A stretch of 22,836 nt of DNA, taken from the IMG/VR virus record IMGVR_UViG_3300017746_000178, positions 1 through 22,836 of that record; one strand, 5' to 3'. The position numbers and the translations under genes are program-made. Shown piece after piece: positions 5,133 to 22,289 of this stretch (position 1 is its first letter; every line of letters begins with the position of its first letter). This stretch comes from a virus. The notes under the pieces are model-generated. The model searched no databases and was not told the origin of the DNA. It saw only the letters and a list, made by a program, of their open reading frames with translations.

Positions 5133-5162
5133 GTAGAGGGGGTTCGATTCCCTCTCCTACTA
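5133..5162 (+). other. tRNA T-arm/3'-end-like hairpin in the MCP leader
   Basis: Bases 5138-5154 form a canonical tRNA T-arm: a five-base G stem, the loop TTCGATT and the complementary CCCTC strand (one G-T pair). GGTTCGATTCC (5141-5151) matches the universal T-loop consensus exactly. Downstream, TCCTACT plus A (5155-5162) could be the 3' acceptor strand and discriminator. No matching 5' acceptor strand, D-arm or anticodon arm is visible upstream, where a coding gene runs to 5123. The RNA can also fold into a longer hairpin, 5133-5160, of ten pairs with a single bulged base. It may be a decayed tRNA, an attachment-site core copied from a host tRNA 3' end, or a structural element of the MCP leader. 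Some T7-like cyanophages carry a short match to a host tRNA gene as an attP, but no integrase is in this window. Confidence 0.6.
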
Positions 5163-5167
5163 TTGGC

Positions 5168-5182
5168 ATTGGCCCTTACGAG
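5168..5182 (+). promoter_or_regulatory. Weak candidate phage RNA-polymerase promoter before MCP
   Basis: The string ATTGGCCCTTACGAG shares ATTGG and a CCC/TTA core with the short promoter described for the Synechococcus phage Syn5 single-subunit polymerase (recalled as ATTGGGCACCCGTAA). The match needs gaps and there is only one copy in the window. The location, about 90 bases before MCP, is where T7 places strong late promoters. Confidence 0.2.
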
Positions 5183-5193
5183 GATACCCTTTG

Positions 5194-5205
5194 CCGTCTA
5201 GACGG
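5194..5205. repeat. Perfect 12-bp palindrome CCGTCTAGACGG in the MCP leader
   Basis: The twelve bases equal their own reverse complement. In RNA they give a short hairpin around a CTAG loop, flanked by CCC (5187-5189) and GGG (5207-5209), which could extend it across a small internal loop. Possible roles are a protein-binding site or part of an RNA processing or stability structure. No function is shown. Confidence 0.85.
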
Positions 5206-5227
5206 TGGGATAGACCACAAAAATTTT

Positions 5228-7078: not shown

Positions 7079-9129
7079 TGGCAAACATCACTCAACAAAT
7101 ACCAAACTTTCTGGGTGGTGTTTCGACTCAACCTGATAACCAAAAATTACCTAACCAAGTTTCTGAAATCATCAATGGCTATCCAGATCCCACCTTTGGT
7201 CTAATTAAACGGCCAGGGTTTAGTTGGATTGCCAACCTTGGATCTGCTACTACTTATGCTACAGGCCATTGGTTTTACTATCGCTACTCAAGCACTGAAG
7301 CATATGTAGGTGTCATTAAGTCTCAGACTATCCAGCTGTGGAATACAAACGGAACAGCAGCGACCATGACAAATGGTACAGGGCAAGCCTATCTAAACAA
7401 TGGGCACAATGATTTTCATGTGGTCTCTAGACAAGATCAGGTCATCATTATTAATAAGACAGTAACTGCTGCTATGTCTTCTAGTACTGTAAGTGGTTCT
7501 GTATCTGCAACAGTAGACAGTGTTGCCAATCTTCCAGCTGCTAGTTCTAACAATGCTTCCATCATTAAAGTATCTAATACTTCTGCTGCTGCTGATGACT
7601 TCTATGTTCTTTCAGATGGAACAACATGGAATGAAACTGTTAAGCCTGGTGTTCCTGTAGGTTTAAATAATACTACTTTACCGCATAAGTTATCTCGAAC
7701 AGCTGTTAATGCATTCACCTTTTCAACTATTACATATGACGATAGAGCTGTAGGGGATGCTGTTACTAATCCTGAACCAGGGTTTATTGGGAAAAAAATT
7801 AACTATGCTTTCTTTGCTAACAACCGTCTTGGCCTGTTAGCCGGTGATGCTGTGATATTAAGCCAGCCTGCTAAAGGAGAGAACTTTTTTAATTTCTTTG
7901 TTAACTCAGCACAAGTACAGACTGATGCAGATCCTATTGACCTGAAGTGTGGAAGCAATAAACCTGTCACTTTGACAGCTGCTTTGCCTGTCACACAAGG
8001 TGTAGTTCTATTTAGTCAACAGCAACAATTTATGCTGTTTTCAGATTCAGCTGTGTTAACTCCTACCCTTGCTGTAATTAAATCTATATCTAATTACGAA
8101 GTTGATCCCGTTGTTCCCCCTGTAGAAAATGGTACTAGTATCACCTTTATCAATAAGACTACTGACTACTGCCGTGTGTTTGGAATGCAGACACAAGGAC
8201 AAGGTGCTAGCCCTTTATTTGTTGACTTAGGTAAGACTGTTACTCAATACATACCGCAGACAGTTTCTGCAATGTTCTCTGATACGCAAAACTCTTTCAT
8301 TGGTTTATATGGTCAGACTAGTAGCAAGGTTTATTTTTATAGGTCATACACAGAAGGACAACAGAACATCATGCGTGCATGGTATAGCTGGGATATGCCC
8401 GGTAATGTCCAGTTCTTTGTAACAGATACCGATTCTGTTATTTCTGTTGTTAAGGGTAACGGTCAAATGACCTTGGTTACCTCTCAACTAAATGCTTTAC
8501 CTACTAGCACTACAACTGTTAGTGGTAATTCATCGTTTGATTTTATGGTAGCTCCTACCAGTAAAACATATGATGTAACTACAAAGACTACAAAGTTATT
8601 TGTGCCCTTCGAGTTGCTTTCTAATCTGACTCCTGTATGTGTGCAAGACGCTACGTCTGGATCTACAGAGTCTGGTTTATTTCTGACACCAACGACTAGT
8701 GCAAGTGGAGGTAATCACTTTATTCTTACAGGTAAAGATTATACTTCTGTTAATTGGAAAGTTGGTTATAAGTTTAACTTTGACATTAAACTACCTAGGA
8801 TGTTTGTCCGTAATGGTGAACGTGTTGACTATACCGGATATTTAACAGTTGCACGCATGAAGTTCTCTATTGGTTTGTCCGGTGATGTTCAGTTTAAAAT
8901 TAAACCGAGAGAAGAAACTGAATTTGCAATCACTGGAGACATCTTTAATACTGGCTACTCACCACTAAACCAAGTACCTATTGAAGACAGTAATGTATTT
9001 ACTGTTCCAATCAATCAACGCAATAACAACTATACCCTTCGTGTATTTAGCGATACACCCTTTATTGTTTCCATGAACTCGGCTATGTGGGAGGGAAATT
9101 TTTCTACTAAATTTTATAGGAGAGCCTGA
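7078..9129 (+). CDS. Tail tubular protein B, T7 gp12 family (nozzle)
   Basis: This is the hexameric nozzle at the tail tip, contacting the fibres and forming the channel exit. Its 683 residues compare with 794 in T7 gp12. The N-terminal signature is clear: QQIPNFLGGVSTQPDNQKLP followed by NGYPDPTFGLIKRPG, the conserved T7-like entry. The middle has NRLGLLAGDAVILSQPAKGE and LFSQQQQFMLFSD, conserved nozzle beta-propeller segments. The C terminus is beta-rich and Thr/Ser-rich. It starts on the TAATG overlap with tail tube A and ends in TGATG overlap with the next gene. A good AGGAGAG ribosome-binding site for the next gene lies inside its last codons. Confidence 0.95.
   Translation: MANITQQIPNFLGGVSTQPDNQKLPNQVSEIINGYPDPTFGLIKRPGFSWIANLGSATTYATGHWFYYRYSSTEAYVGVIKSQTIQLWNTNGTAATMTNGTGQAYLNNGHNDFHVVSRQDQVIIINKTVTAAMSSSTVSGSVSATVDSVANLPAASSNNASIIKVSNTSAAADDFYVLSDGTTWNETVKPGVPVGLNNTTLPHKLSRTAVNAFTFSTITYDDRAVGDAVTNPEPGFIGKKINYAFFANNRLGLLAGDAVILSQPAKGENFFNFFVNSAQVQTDADPIDLKCGSNKPVTLTAALPVTQGVVLFSQQQQFMLFSDSAVLTPTLAVIKSISNYEVDPVVPPVENGTSITFINKTTDYCRVFGMQTQGQGASPLFVDLGKTVTQYIPQTVSAMFSDTQNSFIGLYGQTSSKVYFYRSYTEGQQNIMRAWYSWDMPGNVQFFVTDTDSVISVVKGNGQMTLVTSQLNALPTSTTTVSGNSSFDFMVAPTSKTYDVTTKTTKLFVPFELLSNLTPVCVQDATSGSTESGLFLTPTTSASGGNHFILTGKDYTSVNWKVGYKFNFDIKLPRMFVRNGERVDYTGYLTVARMKFSIGLSGDVQFKIKPREETEFAITGDIFNTGYSPLNQVPIEDSNVFTVPINQRNNNYTLRVFSDTPFIVSMNSAMWEGNFSTKFYRRA
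9118..9124 (+). promoter_or_regulatory. Strong Shine-Dalgarno AGGAGAG for the gene at 9129
   Basis: AGGAGAG sits four bases before the ATG at 9129. It is the clearest Shine-Dalgarno site among the structural genes of this window, most of which start on overlaps or with no such motif, and it fixes this start. Confidence 0.7.
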
Positions 9130-10382
9130 TGACTAGTGCATTGAAAAAAATGCGTCAGTTTAATAGAGCTGTAGCGCAAAAACAGTACGAAACTAATTTA
9201 AACAATTTCTATTCTCAGGAGTTTCAGAATAAGGTCAAAAAGGATCTTACTGATTCTCAGGCTAAGGATACCTGGAAACGCAATATGCAGATCCGGGACA
9301 TTCAAGAGAATGCCAAACTTGAGGCTTACGAAAAGTCTGAAAAAACTTTTGTAGATCAACTTGTATTTAATGAAGAAGCTGCAAAGGTTGCACGTGAAGG
9401 TGAACAACGTGTATTTCAGGAACGTATTCTCGAAACTGCATTTCAAACTGATGAACTAAACCTTCAATTCGAGCAGCAAGTAACTAAAAGTAAGTTTGAC
9501 TATGACCAGCAAGATCAGAATATTAAAAATGCTATAACTGATTTTGAGACTAATCAAGCTTTAATTGACCTTCAAACTGATAAGTCAAAAAGTGATGTTA
9601 ATTTTAGTCTAAAGCAAGCTGATCAAAAAGAAGCTAACGCTAGAGCTGATTCAAACATCAAACAAAACCAAACCCGGATTGAATCTCTACAGGAAACTGG
9701 TCAAGTTAGAGCACAAGGTCGTCGTGGCAACTCAGCCGCTAAAGCCTTGCAATCAATTACAGCGTTGTCTGGTGTTAACTCAGCTCTGATTGCTGACCAA
9801 CTTACACGCTCTGAACTTTCTATTAATACAGATAGGGAGATTCTTAAAGCTACATACAATAAGGATACTGAGTCTGGGTTTGCTTTGCGTCAGCAAAAGG
9901 TATCAACTAGACAAGCTTCTAACAAGAAAACTCAAACTGTTGAATCTGCAGAAAGATCTAAATCTTTTGTTGCTGAAACATTGGGTATGTCAGAAGAACA
10001 GTTTAATATGTCTCGTGAGCAACTAGGTAACTCATTACTTAGTGCAGCTGATACCTATGAAGCTAACCTTAAAAAGGTTAACCGTCAGAAATATGCTGCT
10101 GACCTTCAAACATACGCTAATCGTCAACTCAAACCACGAGTTGCTCTTCCGTATCCGAAGCCGTTTGAGTCAGAAATGCCTATTAATATCATGCCACCTC
10201 GTCCTATTGAACCCGTTCGAGGCGCTGGTGCAACTGGTCAAGCTACTGGTTCTAGTACTGCAGGCATTATCACTGGTGTTGCCGGAACAGTTGCTAGTGT
10301 TGCCGCAGCCTTTGGACCTGCTGGTGCACCTGTAGCTGCTGGCGCTGCAATCGTTGGTGGCATTGCTTCTATATTTAGTTAA
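9129..10382 (+). CDS. Internal virion (ejection) protein, T7 gp14-like
   Basis: A 417-residue protein placed where T7 encodes gp14, the smallest ejection protein, which inserts into the host outer membrane during DNA entry. Residues from about 15 to 330 are highly charged and Gln/Lys/Glu-rich, probably long alpha-helical coiled coil. Around residues 195-225 is GRRGNSAAKALQSITALSG, a segment recurring in phage gp14-like proteins. The C-terminal 40 residues (from about 378) are Gly/Ala/Val-rich and hydrophobic (GIITGVAGTVASVAAAFG, then AAIVGGIASIFS), suitable for membrane insertion. It is about twice the length of T7 gp14 (196 residues). The TGATG overlap with tail tube B and the gene order support the call. 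Confidence 0.75.
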   Translation: MTSALKKMRQFNRAVAQKQYETNLNNFYSQEFQNKVKKDLTDSQAKDTWKRNMQIRDIQENAKLEAYEKSEKTFVDQLVFNEEAAKVAREGEQRVFQERILETAFQTDELNLQFEQQVTKSKFDYDQQDQNIKNAITDFETNQALIDLQTDKSKSDVNFSLKQADQKEANARADSNIKQNQTRIESLQETGQVRAQGRRGNSAAKALQSITALSGVNSALIADQLTRSELSINTDREILKATYNKDTESGFALRQQKVSTRQASNKKTQTVESAERSKSFVAETLGMSEEQFNMSREQLGNSLLSAADTYEANLKKVNRQKYAADLQTYANRQLKPRVALPYPKPFESEMPINIMPPRPIEPVRGAGATGQATGSSTAGIITGVAGTVASVAAAFGPAGAPVAAGAAIVGGIASIFS

Positions 10383-10391
10383 GTATTAATT

Positions 10392-13232
10392 ATGTCAAAA
10401 TTTCGTGGGTACGCCCAAGGTGAGGGCTTTGAACCAATTAAAGCACCTGACACTTCACAACGAATTCTAAATCGAGCTGACGATACTATACGTGGTATCA
10501 GGGAAGTTCGAGATGCAGATATTGCTAATACTGCCGCTTATCTCAATTCTTTCAATGAAAAGATGGAGGCTGAGCGGGAAAGTTTTAGTAACTATTCCAA
10601 ACTGCTACAACTAAACGATAAGACCAAAAGAGATGCTGTTGAAATACGTGCACAGCAAAACGCTGAACGTCAGCAACAATTAGGAGCTAACCGTGCAGGT
10701 ATTTATAAAGCAGTAGCTGGTCTAAGTGCTCAGGCTGCCGGGATGATTTCTAAGTACAGAGAGGATAAGTACCAATCTGATTACGACGAACATCTTTATC
10801 GGTTGTACACACAAGGACCATCTGAGCAAAGTGACGCTGCTGGATACATTGCTGATAAGTACACGATGTATAACCTGCAAATGACTGACATCAGTCGTCT
10901 TGGTGGCGCTGCTGCTGCAGAAGCTAATGGTTCTAGTCCTATACAGACTGCTGAGTTACGCTCGCAAGCGCATGGCCTTAATACAGCTGAGCTACATGCA
11001 CAAGCTGATTTTATGGCACAACGTTGGCCGATGTTTTTACAGCAGTCCTTTATGAATGATAAAGAAACTCAAGTTAAACTTTATGGTCCTAATGGTGCTT
11101 TTCGTACTGGCACTCCTAGTGACGCTCATTCAAGTAAAGATAAGGCACTTGTAGCGCAACAGCTATTAAAAAAGCATATTCAAGATAATGGCTTTTATGG
11201 TAAGAGCCCTGCTTTTTTGACTGATGCTTTGACTAAAATGTCTCAAGGTACTAATCAGATTGTTGCTTCTGCAATGACAAGCGAAGTAAGCCTTCAACGT
11301 CAACAGCAGATTGATAAAGTTGAAACTAAATTTCGTAGTAGTGATGGTAATGCCGCTCAGCGGTTTCACTTCGCGTATAACTATATTTCTAACATACATC
11401 CAGGTCAGCAGGCGGCTGCTAGAGAAAGGTTGTTTAAAATCATGCATGATCAGCGCCAAATTATAAATGGTGTTGTTGTAGGAATGAGTGACGAGGAAGT
11501 TTCTGAAATTATGAATTCTTCTTTCTCACACCAACCTGATAAGTCTCTTGCACAATTATTTCCTGGTGAACTGTTAAAAATAGATAAAGCGAGGAGGAAT
11601 ACACGAGAGCAACTCCATACAGCTGAAGTTACTCAGCGCAGACATGCTATTGAAAAAGATCTAATTAATTTAAAAAATACCGTTAAAGATGATTTGCTTG
11701 GAGATCGAACTTTAGATTTAAATGATGAAAATATTACTGAGATGGTTAAAAGGTATCAGCAACTCGGACCTGATTATAGTGAACAGATTGCCTTTTTAGA
11801 AAGCCTGCGCGACAAGACATACCAAGCAATTAATGCAGCTCCTGTCATTGCTGACATTGAAAACAAAATTTTGCATGGCAACATCTCACCTGACACCATT
11901 ATGGATAATCAGAGAATTCCTCCAGATGAGCGTGTCAGATTGATGAAACTAGCTGATAAATCTGATAAAACTAATCCGTCAGATTCTTTGATGGATGATG
12001 CTAAGGAAGTTATTCAGGAACGTTTAAGCTCTAGAGCCAAGACTAAAGGAGCTAAATCTATTCATTATTCTCTTGGTGTTATGAGGCGTCATGCTTTAAG
12101 TGAGTTTCGTTTAGCGTATAAACGTGAAATGGAAAATACTAATGATTCGTCTACTGCTTATACCAACGCAATAAGTTCTTTCATTAATGAATTTAAAGAC
12201 GAAGAAGGTAAATATGGCATTGTAAATAACCAAGATATAATAAATGCACTCAAAGCTGGCAAACCATTTGACTCAGGTACATTTAGAAATTATACCAATC
12301 ACGACGCTAAAGCTGTAACCCCAGAAACTACAATTAGTGAAATACAAACTCTTCTTAGCGGTAATCCTGCTGCTATCAATACCTCTATTATTGCGGAGCC
12401 AGTTCTTAAAAAAGTAATTACGCAGTACAACAATGGTCAAAAACATTCTTTAATTCCTCAGCTACAAATTATCCAAAAAACAGTGACTAAGCCTAATGGT
12501 GATCGCTATTCTTATGCTGAATTATTAGAGAAACAGTTTAACGCTACTGAAGGTTTAGATATACCGGAAGGTTTGGGTACTGCACTAAAATTTGAAAACT
12601 CAATTCCCAGTAGTTATAAAAAATTTGGACTTTATCCTAGCGCTACCAATAGCGATATTATGATTATGGCGTCTGGATCGCCTTCAGTTTATAGCCGTAA
12701 TTTTGAAATTAGTAATGACCAAGTTAGGGCTTTAAATGTCCTAGCTAAATATGAGTCATCTGCTTATATACAAAATTATGATGGTGGCTACAATGCCATG
12801 AATCAAGGCGGAACTAAAGAAGGCCGTGAAGCCATCAATCCTGGTCATAGCACAGTTCTTTTAGGTAAACTTTTAACTGATATGACTATTGGTGAAGTTA
12901 TCCAAGCACAAAAAAATGGTCGATTACATGCTGCTGGACGCTATCAATTTACTAATAATACTGGTACTTTAGACGATACAATTAAGCTGGCTGGGGGCAT
13001 TTCACTTAATTCAAAATTTGACGCAAAGACCCAAGACTTTTTAGCTCTTACTCTTATGCGTTCTCGTGGTATTACACCTTGGATTGGTCCTGTTGACTAC
13101 GCATCCCCAGATGAACGTCAACTAATTGAAAGTGCCAGATCACAACCTATCAGCTTTGGCCCTTCTGTCTGGGCACAGGGTGACAACATGAACCCTGAAC
13201 TTGTAAAGCGTAAATTAGCAGGTGCTAAATGA
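10392..13232 (+). CDS. Internal virion protein, gp15-like, with C-terminal muramidase-like domain
   Basis: A 946-residue protein in the T7 gp15 position (747 residues in T7), part of the internal core that is ejected and builds a channel across the periplasm. The first ~700 residues are helical and charged, without catalytic motifs I can recognise. From about residue 773 it resembles phage lambda R-type lysozyme folds: a candidate catalytic Glu788 in LAKYESSAYIQNYDGGY, then a helical MTIGEVIQAQ segment, AAGRYQF (847-853), and FDAKTQDFLALTLM with RG. Lambda R has SEGTDN, AGRYQL and SPKSQDAVAL with ERG in the same order. A peptidoglycan-cutting activity for DNA injection is therefore likely. 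In T7 this activity is at the N terminus of gp16. The stop overlaps the next start as ATGA. The gp15 assignment rests on order; the enzyme domain on motifs. Confidence 0.82.
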   Translation: MSKFRGYAQGEGFEPIKAPDTSQRILNRADDTIRGIREVRDADIANTAAYLNSFNEKMEAERESFSNYSKLLQLNDKTKRDAVEIRAQQNAERQQQLGANRAGIYKAVAGLSAQAAGMISKYREDKYQSDYDEHLYRLYTQGPSEQSDAAGYIADKYTMYNLQMTDISRLGGAAAAEANGSSPIQTAELRSQAHGLNTAELHAQADFMAQRWPMFLQQSFMNDKETQVKLYGPNGAFRTGTPSDAHSSKDKALVAQQLLKKHIQDNGFYGKSPAFLTDALTKMSQGTNQIVASAMTSEVSLQRQQQIDKVETKFRSSDGNAAQRFHFAYNYISNIHPGQQAAARERLFKIMHDQRQIINGVVVGMSDEEVSEIMNSSFSHQPDKSLAQLFPGELLKIDKARRNTREQLHTAEVTQRRHAIEKDLINLKNTVKDDLLGDRTLDLNDENITEMVKRYQQLGPDYSEQIAFLESLRDKTYQAINAAPVIADIENKILHGNISPDTIMDNQRIPPDERVRLMKLADKSDKTNPSDSLMDDAKEVIQERLSSRAKTKGAKSIHYSLGVMRRHALSEFRLAYKREMENTNDSSTAYTNAISSFINEFKDEEGKYGIVNNQDIINALKAGKPFDSGTFRNYTNHDAKAVTPETTISEIQTLLSGNPAAINTSIIAEPVLKKVITQYNNGQKHSLIPQLQIIQKTVTKPNGDRYSYAELLEKQFNATEGLDIPEGLGTALKFENSIPSSYKKFGLYPSATNSDIMIMASGSPSVYSRNFEISNDQVRALNVLAKYESSAYIQNYDGGYNAMNQGGTKEGREAINPGHSTVLLGKLLTDMTIGEVIQAQKNGRLHAAGRYQFTNNTGTLDDTIKLAGGISLNSKFDAKTQDFLALTLMRSRGITPWIGPVDYASPDERQLIESARSQPISFGPSVWAQGDNMNPELVKRKLAGAK

Positions 13233-16200
13233 ATATCAACGAACAATTTGGACAAATAGGATATGATCCTTCTGATGAGGTTGAACAACGTTTTGAAGCT
13301 CACCGAGCGGAAGAACAACGTCAGGCTGCTTTAGAAGAAGAGAACAAATTAAAAGCAGAAAAGGAAGAAGCCAAAGCTACTGCTGCAAAAGAGGCGCAAG
13401 CCAAAGAAGACAGTAAGCATCTTGGCGACAAGATCTTAGACACACCAGTTGTAGGTCAAGTGGCAAGTGTTGGTGCTGGTGTCCTTGATACTGCCTTCGA
13501 CGTTGGTGGTCTAGTACCGTGGCTTAAGCCTGCAGATGAATGGTGGGATACTCACCATGGTAGAGATAAAGAAGACAACCCACTTAACAAATTCATTCGA
13601 GATGCTTCAGGCATTATTGTTCCTGCTCTTACTGGCGGTGGCATTATTGCTAAGGGGCTTCAGGGAGCTGCAGCAGTAGGTAAGCTTGGAAGGGGTGTGC
13701 AGGCTGCTTCTGCTTTGACTCGTACCAAAGTAGTAGGTCGCATTGCTGTTGACCTAGGTGTCAGTACAGCAATTGAAGCTACTTCTGAACAAACTGATGA
13801 AGCAGGTAACGTTGCAACTGCACTTGAAGAAGTTTTAGGTACACAGATTCCTTGGGCTAGCCGCGACGGTGAAAGTCCTGATGTAATCAAAGCAAAAAAT
13901 ATTTGGGAAAGTGTTGCCATCGGTGGCTTTACTGGTCTTTTAGATGCTTTCTTTTCTCTCAAGGCTGCTACTAAACTAATCCCCAAAGATGAGGCAGCAA
14001 AGGTTGTCCTTGACGATCGTCTTGCAAAAGAATCTAAGGAACTAATGGCTGCTGATGGTGATGAGCTAGTAGCAAAAGTTGAATCTGCAAGAACTTCTAG
14101 AGAAGCAGCTATTACAGATGAAGCAGAAAAAAGGTTTAATGTAACTGGTGGTCAGGATTATGACCCTTATGTTAACGAACCACACCTTTCTACTGATCGT
14201 CCAATGCCTAACTGGGACGCTGATCCAATCTTAGCCAAAGTTGATTACGTTCGTATGGCAAAAAATATTGATGTGTCTGACGGTAGAGCTAGAGCAGTCG
14301 TTACTGATTCCTATAAAAAAGAGCTTTTAAACTCTGATGCTGCTGGGCGTAATGTAATGCTTGATAGGCTTACTGCTAAAGCTAGTCCTAAATTTAATGC
14401 TGTTGTTAAGACAGCTAAAGGTGCTGTAACAATCACGGCTAACGAACAAGATTTAGCAGTTCAAGAGCTTACTCGTGCTGTTACTAGAGTTGATCCTAAA
14501 GAAATGGAAGTTCTAGTTAAGCAGATGCTTGGGTTTACAGAAGAGCAACTAGTTGACGGTGGTAAGAAATTTAAGACGCTAAACGTAGCTAGCGCTAAAA
14601 AAGCAACTGAAGTGCTGATGCGTGGCTTAGAAATTATTGATCCCCAAAAGTTAAAAGCCTCAGCTATGGTTGTCAACCAATCAGCTGGTGATGCAGCAGA
14701 TGTTTCTACTGCGATTGGTAAGATGGATAATCTAAATACTACGAGTCAGCAAGAACTAGCCATTGATAATTTATCAATTTTATTACGTGAAGTTGGTATT
14801 CATAATTCTATTAATGGTACGCGACTTCAAGCTACTAAACAACTTAAGTTAGCTCAGCAACAAAAGAAACTTGATACATCTTGGTGGAAAAATCAAGTTG
14901 ATTCATTCGATGAAAAAGTTGCCGAAAGAACTAGAAATGCTCAAAAAGTTGCTTCTACTCTTAAAGAAGTAGCAAAGGTTAACCCAGAATACCTTAAACC
15001 TCTTTACCGGGAGATTGCTAAAACAGGTGGCCGTGTTCACGATATTCACTCTCTTAATAAGTTAGTTGAAAACCGCTTAGGTTTTATTAAAAAAGCTTTT
15101 GTTGATGGTGACTCTGAGATGCCATCTAACCTTGTACGTGAATTGCAAACAGCACGTTATAACAGCGTTTTGACTGGCCTTGCACCTATACGTGCCGCTA
15201 GTGGTGCCGCTATTTCATTGATTGGTAAACCTCTCACTGTGTTTGCTGGTTCAGCCGGTGGAAAATTATCCGGTACTGCTGAAGGTGCTGCAGCTTGGAA
15301 ACGTGCAATGTACACCTACGGCGGTGTTACAGAAAACTTTCAGCGTGCATTTAAAAACCTTCAATCTGAATGGAAGTTTGCTCTTGAAAATCCGCGTACA
15401 TATGGCAGTGGAATGCGGCAAGATCTTAAATTTAATGCTTTAGATGACTACGAAACTCTGGAAGAGCTTTCAGAGTCTTGGCACAAAAATAAAGAATACG
15501 GCAAAGTAGCTATTTGGAATTTGACTAAGGCTGTTTCGCGCATGAATGATGGTGTTATTCCTAGGTTTGGCATCAACGCAATGCGAGCAATTGATGGTTT
15601 TACTCAATCATTTACTGGAAGCATGGCAGCAAGAGCTAAGGCTTATGATGCACTATTTAGTGAAAGCAATGGTGTTTATAACGATCTTGACTTTCAAAAG
15701 ATGCAGCGTAACATCTATGATGATATGTTTAATGCAGACGGTGGCCCAAAAACTAGCAAAGGTTTTGAAGCTAAATTATATGCAGAAAATGCTGCCGGTG
15801 AAATTAATTTAAACTTAGATGTTGCAGTCGTTGATTCCTTGGAAAATGCGATGAAAAATTTTCCGGTCTTAAAGTCAATCTTTATGTTCCCTAGGACTGG
15901 TGTTAACGCCTTGCAACTTGCTGCAACATTTAGTCCTGGCAATACTATTACAACTATCACAAACGGTAGACTAAACCTTGCACTTGGGAAAGCTCGCCGT
16001 GTTCTAACTGCTGAAACAAAAGAGCAAATTCGTGATGTTTTATCTGAACATGGTCTTGCTGGTTTTAATGATGAATTAGCTTTTCGTCAACTTAAGTCTG
16101 AATACATCGGTCGTCACACCATGGGAAGTGCCGTAACTATGGGCGCTGCACTTATGGCAGCTAACGGAATGATGACAGGATCAGGTCCACAGGATGCTGC

Positions 16201-17191
16201 AGAAAAGCGGCGTATGCAAGCTATGGGTTGGAAGCCTTTTTCATTTTGGGATCCAATTACTAACCAATGGCGCAGTTATCAAGGGTTAGAACCTTTCGAT
16301 ACATTCCTTGGTCTTACTGCTGATATTGTTTATAATTTTGACCGTGTAGATGAAGCAGTTACAGAAGATATGTTCCGTGCAGCTACACATGCTATTACTA
16401 TGAACATTAGTGCTAAGTCTTTTCTTAGTGGTTTTGAACCTTTGGCTGGAGTTATTGGCGGTGACCCTGGTGAACTAAATAAGTTCCTTGTTAATTATGC
16501 TGACTCTACACTTCCTATGGCAGGTGTTCGCAGTATTTTAAACAAAGCTATTACCCCACAATTAAAGGATGTTGAAAACAATTTACTTGAGCGCTGGGCT
16601 AATAGGAACAAATGGTTAATGGGCCATGGTCTAGAAAATTATACTGACATTTATACTGGTAATCCAATTAACTATCCAGACCCTTTAACTAGAGCTTGGA
16701 ATACCTTTGCTCCTTTCTTCAAAACTAATCCTGGTATGGAACCTTGGCGTCTTTGGTTACTTGGCACAGGCTGGGACGGCTTGCAAACAGTTCGACGTAA
16801 CAAGACTACCAACGAAGCGTTGACACCAAAAGAACGCCAATTTATGAATAATTGGATTGGTCAACATTATCAACTGGGTAAAAAAGTTGAAGACCTGATG
16901 AATGCTGGGCCAGGTTTTTGGGACAAAAAAATGAAAGAGTATGTCCAGGCAAGAGGCTTAAAATCTCAAGAGGAGATGCCTATCAAAGAAACTGTGCTTC
17001 ATCAACTTCTTTCTGACATGCATAATGATGCATTTACGGCTGCTTCCACAGCATTAAGCATGGAAAATGAAGACTATGCACGCAAGAAAGTCCTTAACGC
17101 TATGCGTGATGCTGCCTTGAATCGTGGTGATAGTGAAGGTGCCAGTCGAACGGCTGATCAAATTAAATCGTTAACTTCTATTCCTAAATAA
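13229..17191 (+). CDS. Large internal virion protein, T7 gp16-like, lacking the N-terminal transglycosylase
   Basis: The 1320-residue length is nearly identical to T7 gp16 (1318). It is the largest ejection protein and is expected to span the cell envelope during genome entry. The N terminus is a charged Ala/Glu/Lys helix (about residues 20-65). It is followed by hydrophobic Gly/Ala segments near 70-100 (VVGQVASVGAGVL), 128-150 (GIIVPALTGGGIIAKGL) and 225-245 (VAIGGFTGLLDAFFS). Another such segment begins at about 964 (TMGSAVTMGAALMAANGMM). A conserved-looking KSIFMFPRTGVNALQLAATF lies near residue 880, and PFDTFLGLTADI near 1030. I see no soluble lytic transglycosylase motif at the start, unlike T7 gp16; the muramidase-like domain is at the end of the upstream gene instead. 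The ATGA overlap suggests the two proteins are made in a fixed ratio. Confidence 0.83.
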   Translation: MNINEQFGQIGYDPSDEVEQRFEAHRAEEQRQAALEEENKLKAEKEEAKATAAKEAQAKEDSKHLGDKILDTPVVGQVASVGAGVLDTAFDVGGLVPWLKPADEWWDTHHGRDKEDNPLNKFIRDASGIIVPALTGGGIIAKGLQGAAAVGKLGRGVQAASALTRTKVVGRIAVDLGVSTAIEATSEQTDEAGNVATALEEVLGTQIPWASRDGESPDVIKAKNIWESVAIGGFTGLLDAFFSLKAATKLIPKDEAAKVVLDDRLAKESKELMAADGDELVAKVESARTSREAAITDEAEKRFNVTGGQDYDPYVNEPHLSTDRPMPNWDADPILAKVDYVRMAKNIDVSDGRARAVVTDSYKKELLNSDAAGRNVMLDRLTAKASPKFNAVVKTAKGAVTITANEQDLAVQELTRAVTRVDPKEMEVLVKQMLGFTEEQLVDGGKKFKTLNVASAKKATEVLMRGLEIIDPQKLKASAMVVNQSAGDAADVSTAIGKMDNLNTTSQQELAIDNLSILLREVGIHNSINGTRLQATKQLKLAQQQKKLDTSWWKNQVDSFDEKVAERTRNAQKVASTLKEVAKVNPEYLKPLYREIAKTGGRVHDIHSLNKLVENRLGFIKKAFVDGDSEMPSNLVRELQTARYNSVLTGLAPIRAASGAAISLIGKPLTVFAGSAGGKLSGTAEGAAAWKRAMYTYGGVTENFQRAFKNLQSEWKFALENPRTYGSGMRQDLKFNALDDYETLEELSESWHKNKEYGKVAIWNLTKAVSRMNDGVIPRFGINAMRAIDGFTQSFTGSMAARAKAYDALFSESNGVYNDLDFQKMQRNIYDDMFNADGGPKTSKGFEAKLYAENAAGEINLNLDVAVVDSLENAMKNFPVLKSIFMFPRTGVNALQLAATFSPGNTITTITNGRLNLALGKARRVLTAETKEQIRDVLSEHGLAGFNDELAFRQLKSEYIGRHTMGSAVTMGAALMAANGMMTGSGPQDAAEKRRMQAMGWKPFSFWDPITNQWRSYQGLEPFDTFLGLTADIVYNFDRVDEAVTEDMFRAATHAITMNISAKSFLSGFEPLAGVIGGDPGELNKFLVNYADSTLPMAGVRSILNKAITPQLKDVENNLLERWANRNKWLMGHGLENYTDIYTGNPINYPDPLTRAWNTFAPFFKTNPGMEPWRLWLLGTGWDGLQTVRRNKTTNEALTPKERQFMNNWIGQHYQLGKKVEDLMNAGPGFWDKKMKEYVQARGLKSQEEMPIKETVLHQLLSDMHNDAFTAASTALSMENEDYARKKVLNAMRDAALNRGDSEGASRTADQIKSLTSIPK

Positions 17192-21782: not shown

Positions 21783-22289
21783 ATGGAAATTAGAAATCGT
21801 TCAAATGGCAAACTAACTACCATTAGTCAGTTTAAAGCCTCACAACCAAACACAAGCTTTCCTAAGCAAATTACAGTTGAAATCCTTGATAGTTATGGCT
21901 ACGATCCTGTATTAAATGGTACTCCAGCTACTGTTGTTGCTCCTTATGAAATAAGCATGCGTAGTGGTGTCGAAGAAGTCGAGGGACAGTGGTTTACGAA
22001 ATTCTTCGCTGGTCCAGTTTTTACTGACACTACCGATGATGACGGCAACGTTACAACAGCAGCAGACAACGAAGCTGCATACAAAGTACGTATTGATGCA
22101 GAAGCTGCTACTTCTGTTCGTACACAACGTGATATCAAATTACACGACACAGATTGGACACAAGCGGCTGATGGCAAACTATCTGATTCAGTTAAAGCTG
22201 CTTGGGTTACCTATCGCCAAGAGCTGCGCGACCTAAGTGCAGCTTCCGGTTTCCCACACACTATGGCCTGGCCAACTAAACCATCTTAA
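21783..22289 (+). CDS. Tail (fibre) assembly chaperone-like protein
   Basis: A 168-residue protein with the C-terminal signature of phage tail-assembly chaperone-like proteins: T123-D-W-T-Q, LSDSVKAAWVTYRQELRDL and the closing GFPHTMAWPTKP. In this widespread family the pattern is TDWTQ, an LSD-x-x-K-x-AW helix with YRQ-LRD, and a terminal FP-x-x-x-W-P. The N-terminal half is polar and variable (NRSNGKLTTISQFKAS) and may recognise the partner fibre. It lies directly after the two fibre-type genes, with a 6-base gap, which fits a role in folding or assembling them; it may also be virion-bound. The family call is good and the exact partner is inferred. Confidence 0.8.
   Translation: MEIRNRSNGKLTTISQFKASQPNTSFPKQITVEILDSYGYDPVLNGTPATVVAPYEISMRSGVEEVEGQWFTKFFAGPVFTDTTDDDGNVTTAADNEAAYKVRIDAEAATSVRTQRDIKLHDTDWTQAADGKLSDSVKAAWVTYRQELRDLSAASGFPHTMAWPTKPS

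Follow-up and report, generated by a model that had tools for sequence, protein, structure and literature searches.

Which protein of the ejected virion core carries the cell-wall enzyme in cyanopodoviruses, and how did the enzyme come to be there? In phage T7, a lytic transglycosylase of the SLT family forms the N terminus of gp16, whereas the stretch of DNA analysed here was originally predicted to carry its muramidase domain at the C terminus of gp15, the domain having moved across from gp16 through a domain swap or boundary shift that changed where in the ejectosome the wall is cut. Here we find that the region is very probably a C-terminal wall-hydrolase cassette, in this case of lambda-R type, attached to a tolerant slot of the cyanopodovirus gp15 ejection protein.

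The window—the whole of IMG/VR record IMGVR_UViG_3300017746_000178, 22,836 bases—is a cyanopodovirus fragment that encodes, in order, ribonucleotide reductase parts, portal, scaffold, capsid, tail tubular A and tail tubular B (nozzle), followed by gp14-like, gp15-like and gp16-like proteins and the tail fibre. Tail tubular B–gp14–gp15–gp16–fibre is the core-gene order, and the gp15-like gene lies between the gp14-like and gp16-like genes of the core operon, as it does in podovirus relatives. The features considered below are as follows.

9129–10382, plus strand: gp14-like internal virion protein, 417 amino acids (open reading frame; phrog_20153, 1e-25; synteny with gp14 of relatives)
10392–12656, plus strand: body of the gp15-like protein, residues 1–755 (phrog_24152, 8.6e-39 over residues 3–697; S-CBP3 gp15, 22%, E = 2e-21)
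12705–13172, plus strand: predicted lambda-R-type lysozyme or lytic transglycosylase domain (the hydrolase cassette), gp15 residues ~772–927 (homology, profile and motifs)
12753–12755, plus strand: codon of Glu788, the predicted catalytic acid, equivalent to lambda R Glu19 (alignment; invariant in 13 relatives)
12930–12950, plus strand: AAGRYQF motif, residues 847–853 (AGRYQ is common to lambda R)
13017–13040, plus strand: FDAKTQDF motif, residues 876–883 (FSPKSQDA in lambda R)
13143–13229, plus strand: gp15 C-terminal tail QPISFGPSVWAQGDNMNP..., residues 918–946 (kept in the relative L035 despite a replaced enzyme before it)
13229–17191, plus strand: gp16-like internal virion protein, 1320 amino acids, without an N-terminal SLT domain (phrog_6651 'internal virion protein', 9e-187; homologous to cyanopodovirus gp16)

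The gp15-like open reading frame (10392–13232) encodes 946 amino acids, and its stop codon overlaps the start of gp16 (ATGA). The body of ~755 residues, mostly helical and comparable in size to T7 gp15 (747 residues), is clearly homologous to cyanopodovirus gp15 through phrog_24152 and S-CBP3, and synteny marks it as a probable ejection-tunnel protein. Searching gp15 and gp16 against the PDB with phmmer returned nothing useful; the top PDB match of a full-length AF2 model of gp15 was chain G of 9jyy (probability 0.84, E = 0.053), a 671-residue chain in an entry described as 'core proteins of mature T7'. Among named phages, gp16 reaches ~42% identity at best, to S-CBP3; the nearest IMG/VR contigs have 80% in common with the window for gp16 (L027, L030 and L036) and 90% for gp15 (L026).

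The C-terminal domain matches no Pfam model. Residues 757–946 match the PHROGs endolysin families phrog_90 (5e-6) and phrog_1200 (1.5e-4), as do all 13 relatives, and tblastn finds it in cyanomyovirus virion 'endolysins', with 42% identity over 161 residues in S-CREM2 (E = 1e-26). With a profile built from podovirus relatives alone, phage lambda lysozyme (3d3d, 1am7) came top of the whole PDB sequence set, weakly at E = 0.03; a profile lacking lambda R gave it 16.9 bits, whereas none of 2,500 shuffled decoys exceeded 5.5; and hhalign aligned the domain with lambda R at 91% probability (E = 1.1e-6). A848–Q852 of gp15 falls on A64–Q68 of lambda R, and the AGRYQ motif and Glu788 are invariant or nearly so across the 13 relatives. 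The original prediction of a lambda-R-like domain ending the gp15-like protein, with Glu788, AAGRYQF and FDAKTQDF, is thus confirmed both in the placement of these residues and by HMM search. The kinship is distant (28% over ~100 residues), and lambda R, with which the window domain has in common the glutamate (Glu19/Glu788), AGRYQ and F-x-x-K-x-QD, is unlike it a stand-alone lysis enzyme.

Structure prediction gave a divided answer. The AF2 model of the domain (pLDDT 74.5, pTM 0.72) had no significant match among PDB folds, lysozyme-like proteins being among the best with E values above 2, whereas its matches in BFVD to S-TIP37 gp15 (E = 5e-9), the phiM12 baseplate hub and a SAR endolysin were significant. 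The modelled lysozyme fold is therefore backed by relatives and not by a solved structure. Two uncultured marine virus proteins in BFVD that structurally match the lysozyme-type domain are named 'Endonuclease' (A0A0F7LB59, E = 9e-12) and 'Exonuclease' (A0A0F7LA47, 5e-11), names that look wrong for the matched region. As judged from its sequence, the domain is probably a lytic transglycosylase that uses Glu788 and is related to the virion-associated lysozymes of cyanomyoviruses.

Could this be the T7 enzyme itself, carried across the gp15/gp16 boundary and subsequently diverged into a lambda-R-like domain? The gp16-like protein does lack the T7 transglycosylase, as predicted: Pfam models identified no SLT or other enzyme in the gp16 of the window or in 56 other dereplicated gp16 N termini, and likewise no hydrolase in another 16 gp16 rows drawn from named phages, while the T7 control in the same run scored 1.3e-30 for SLT (1.7e-31 for full-length T7 gp16). 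In two records gp16 is split into two open reading frames, S-CBP3 (L002:11963-15777, 389 + 863 residues) and S-RIP1 (L013:5202-9199, 263 + 1067 residues), which could be real or could stem from sequencing or annotation. The enzyme does lie on gp15 just upstream of the gp15/gp16 junction, and the two systems are alike in that an ejected virion wall enzyme adjoins this junction; SLT domains are also present on some gp15 proteins (S-CBP4, L110), and two gp15 proteins weakly match the T7 gp16 SLT (L076, 7.7e-8; L072, 3.9e-7). However, hhalign gives the window domain and the T7 gp16 N terminus a probability of 0.5%, so that no homology is detectable; SLT is retained in no sampled gp16 of the group; the gp15 body is already the size of T7 gp15 before the enzyme begins; and in the window's clade a conserved tail of ~29 residues follows the enzyme, which therefore occupies an internal slot of gp15. 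A single shift also cannot give the range of at least seven families found in that slot. We consider a boundary crossing very unlikely, and the proposed move from gp16 is likewise not supported. The claim that the enzyme is of a different type holds for its family. Since lambda R, like T7 gp16, is a lytic transglycosylase, the kind of reaction may well be the same.

Across cyanopodoviruses, a predicted wall enzyme is regularly found on gp15 after a body of T7 gp15 size, in named phages mostly after about residue 650–775. At least seven enzyme families occur in this slot—SLT, SLT_3, Phage_lysozyme2, Glucosaminidase, Hydrolase_2, M23, M15 and lambda-R domains—and several further IMG/VR classes are named only by their seed contig. 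The assignments are as follows.

Glucosaminidase: S-CBP1, DSL-LC07 and S-SRP01 (S-SRP01 with M23)
SLT with M23: S-CBP4
SLT_3: S-CBP3
Hydrolase_2: S-RIP2; S-B28 (below the Pfam cutoff)
Phage_lysozyme2: L058, L062, L063, L066 and L115; P60 (below the cutoff); Syn5 (through a P60-seeded profile)
SLT with M15: L110, L114 and L120
M23 alone: L078, L104 and L117 (own HMM)
Lambda-R: the window, S-TIP37, L043, L045 and L052; divergent in S-RIP1

In S-RIP1, the one wrong row of an 18-member gp15 set, the 787-residue protein is gp15 and bears the divergent lambda-R-like domain, and the 1067-residue coding sequence is gp16. Several gp15 proteins (in the L071–L122 range, and S-SRP01) carry tandem enzymes, SLT + M23, SLT + M15 or Glucosaminidase + M23, in which the glycan cutter precedes the peptidase.

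Close relatives show how such a range can arise at one position. Between S-B28 and the contig L043, the DNA is 92–100% identical on both flanks and 40–49% identical across the enzyme; the gp15 bodies agree at 95.6% and the gp16 proteins at 94.2%, and the enzymes between them, Hydrolase_2 in S-B28 and lambda-R-type in L043, are unrelated. L031 and L035 agree at 96.8% in gp16 and 83% in the gp15 body, and the gp15 sequence of L031 and L033 is retained in L035 on either side of the cassette, C-terminal tail included, but encloses a different lysozyme-like domain. On the gp16 tree, enzyme class changed at least 24 times among 73 phages with complete gp15, at least 17 times among 64 phages when the eight named classes alone are counted, and 28 times in an earlier run that included partial gp15 proteins, counts that rest on HMM-based classes and on gp16 alignments that are hard at such depth; an alignment of all gp16 proteins was too diverse for a scan of the collection. 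Assembly chimeras are possible for the tightest swap pairs, as each includes a metagenome contig; that L043 and L045, separate contigs of the S-B28 clade, both carry lambda-R domains speaks against a single chimera. We looked for a near-identical swap among isolates only and found none, the closest isolates to S-B28, 7B11-B and WH11-B, having the same Hydrolase_2 cassette. The domain family, the catalytic residue, the SLT-free gp16 and the cassette exchange in relatives can all be read from the sequences themselves, and by the same comparisons the gp15 end is an exchange slot at which unrelated predicted hydrolases have repeatedly replaced one another, the gp15 body and gp16 staying in place. 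A one-off relocation of the T7 enzyme is accordingly rejected: the window domain is an interchangeable part, one of at least seven unrelated slot enzymes that sister phages often swap.

Not every gp15 has such an enzyme. None is recognisable in 41 of the 113 dereplicated complete gp15 proteins, all 41 of which come from the P-SSP7-type gp16 query set or from named Prochlorococcus phages, and a search of the P-SSP7 nozzle protein and of five gp15 proteins from the P-SSP7 clade likewise revealed no wall enzyme. Many of these enzyme-free, P-SSP7-like proteins end instead in one to three W-x-K...GY-V...G-EW repeats (for example, L124, L127, L130, L126, L134 and L123), a number that varies among phages whose gp16 proteins closely resemble one another. 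A gp15 wall enzyme is recognisable in 15 of the 15 Synechococcus-infecting isolates examined and in none of the four that infect Prochlorococcus (P-SSP7, P-SSP3, P-GSP1 and NATL1A-7), counts that are confounded by phylogeny.

These non-enzymatic repeat modules at the same end of gp15 are one reason to ask whether the window domain, the activity of which is predicted, is instead a catalytically inactive lysozyme fold whose role is to bind peptidoglycan or to pack DNA around the core in the capsid. The lysozyme-like domains of Pectobacterium phage PhiM1 border the DNA path, and a DNA groove has been proposed for that of its OEP protein (PMC11440229). Such a structural role is improbable, although less so than a boundary crossing: Glu788 and AGRYQ are kept in relatives, and what takes the place of the domain is in most cases another family of wall hydrolase with an unrelated fold, which suggests that selection acts on the reaction.

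The labels attached to the family raise a further alternative, namely that the domain is an endolysin, joined to a virion protein or mistakenly assigned to one, whose function is in lysis. PHROGs and GenBank name the relatives 'endolysin', and lambda R itself serves lysis. Yet the reading frame runs unbroken from the core protein body of ~755 residues into the domain, and the close homologues of the domain, the S-CREM2 'endolysin (virion protein)' and the phiM12 baseplate hub, belong to virions. In other cyanopodoviruses, a lysozyme is encoded by a gene of its own, located further downstream (P60_gp37, S-CBP1_0040). We give this alternative as little credence as the boundary crossing.

With a virion hydrolase cassette as the preferred reading, its source can be sought among known systems. 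Many more podovirus contigs in IMG/VR have the lambda-R domain at the end of gp15, with gp14, gp16 and nozzle genes as neighbours; the domain is also found inside other, non-podovirus proteins. The closest non-podovirus relatives of the window domain are cyanomyovirus virion proteins. Virion 'endolysins' of Kyanoviridae (up to 42% identity in cyanomyoviruses) and the tail lysozyme of the Sinorhizobium phage phiM12 baseplate hub belong to the same family, but there the domain is internal to other, non-podovirus virion proteins of a different virion machine. In the domain tree, gp15 and non-gp15 contexts are intermixed, and a single origin of the gp15 copies was neither established nor rejected (p-AU 0.25). 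A close named parallel is S-TIP37, in which the gp15-like STIP37_37, annotated as hypothetical, carries a lambda-R-type domain at its C terminus directly before gp16 (42% over 107 residues); S-TIP37 differs in its lineage, which is distant and in the gp16 tree nests with P-SSP7. Beyond cyanobacterial hosts, a lysozyme on a gp15-like protein was reported in the Escherichia phages K1E and K1-5 (PMC8954989), where the protein is gp35, and a lysozyme-like domain in PhiM1 OEP (PMC11440229); in these phages, as predicted for the window, the gp15-equivalent ejection protein bears a lysozyme-like activity or domain. The gp16 equivalent of PhiM1 also has an endolysin-like domain. Domain shuffling has been documented for endolysins and receptor-binding proteins in an article in which we found no mention of ejection proteins (PMC10684548), and a comparison of 20 cyanopodoviruses described phylogenetic incongruence of an internal core protein, with no match in it to gp15, lysozyme or peptidoglycan (PMC4646655). 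A search of open-access journal articles turned up no description of a fixed slot on gp15 that takes such a range of enzymes and exchanges its cassettes rapidly.

Where would the domain act? The gp16 N-terminal domain of the T7 tunnel forms wings on gp15; an enzyme on either partner may therefore reach a similar place, and the change of cutting site proposed in the original prediction is consequently not secured. During T7 infection, gp14, gp15 and gp16 exit the capsid and assemble into a tunnel in the periplasm, the peptidoglycan being opened by a wall enzyme (PMC8954989). By analogy, the gp15 C-terminal domain is the likely cutter in the window phage: it would travel inside the capsid as part of the gp14/gp15/gp16 core, be ejected with gp15 into the periplasm and cut a local hole in the peptidoglycan, making room for the tunnel of gp15 and gp16. 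That the domain is active, is ejected and cuts at this place we infer for this phage.

We suggest, tentatively and as a possibility somewhat short of even, that the gp15 end is a dedicated, fast-turning slot for at least seven unrelated hydrolase families, supplied in part by virion lysozymes of cyanomyoviruses, and that selection by host wall chemistry drives its turnover. If so, the slot would do at the wall what the exchange of tail fibres does at the surface. The cassette reading replaces the story of a one-off domain move by a general rule for a group of viruses abundant in the ocean, namely that the predicted wall enzyme is on gp15 and interchangeable; penetration of the wall then looks like a further, hidden level at which these phages adapt to their hosts once the receptor is bound. 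It also assigns predicted functions to gp15 proteins, most of which are currently annotated as hypothetical. The data also suggest that virion lysozymes pass between cyanomyoviruses and cyanopodoviruses, and S-B28 and L043 offer a natural pair that, in the gp15 region, differ almost only in the cassette.

Elsewhere in the window, a non-coding stretch upstream of the capsid gene (5137–5223) has 82–91% DNA identity to P-SSP2, P-SSP3, P-SSP10 and P-SCSP-R27W, the records of which megablast matched to the window nowhere else. Within it lie GGGGGTTCGATTCCCTC, which resembles a tRNA T-arm, and a palindrome, CCGTCTAGACGG; Rfam and tRNA searches gave no match to it, and its folding energy is not unusual. 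At 21783–22289, 3′ of the tail fibre genes, this podovirus encodes a Phage_tail_APC protein (tail assembly chaperone, PF16778, 3e-20).
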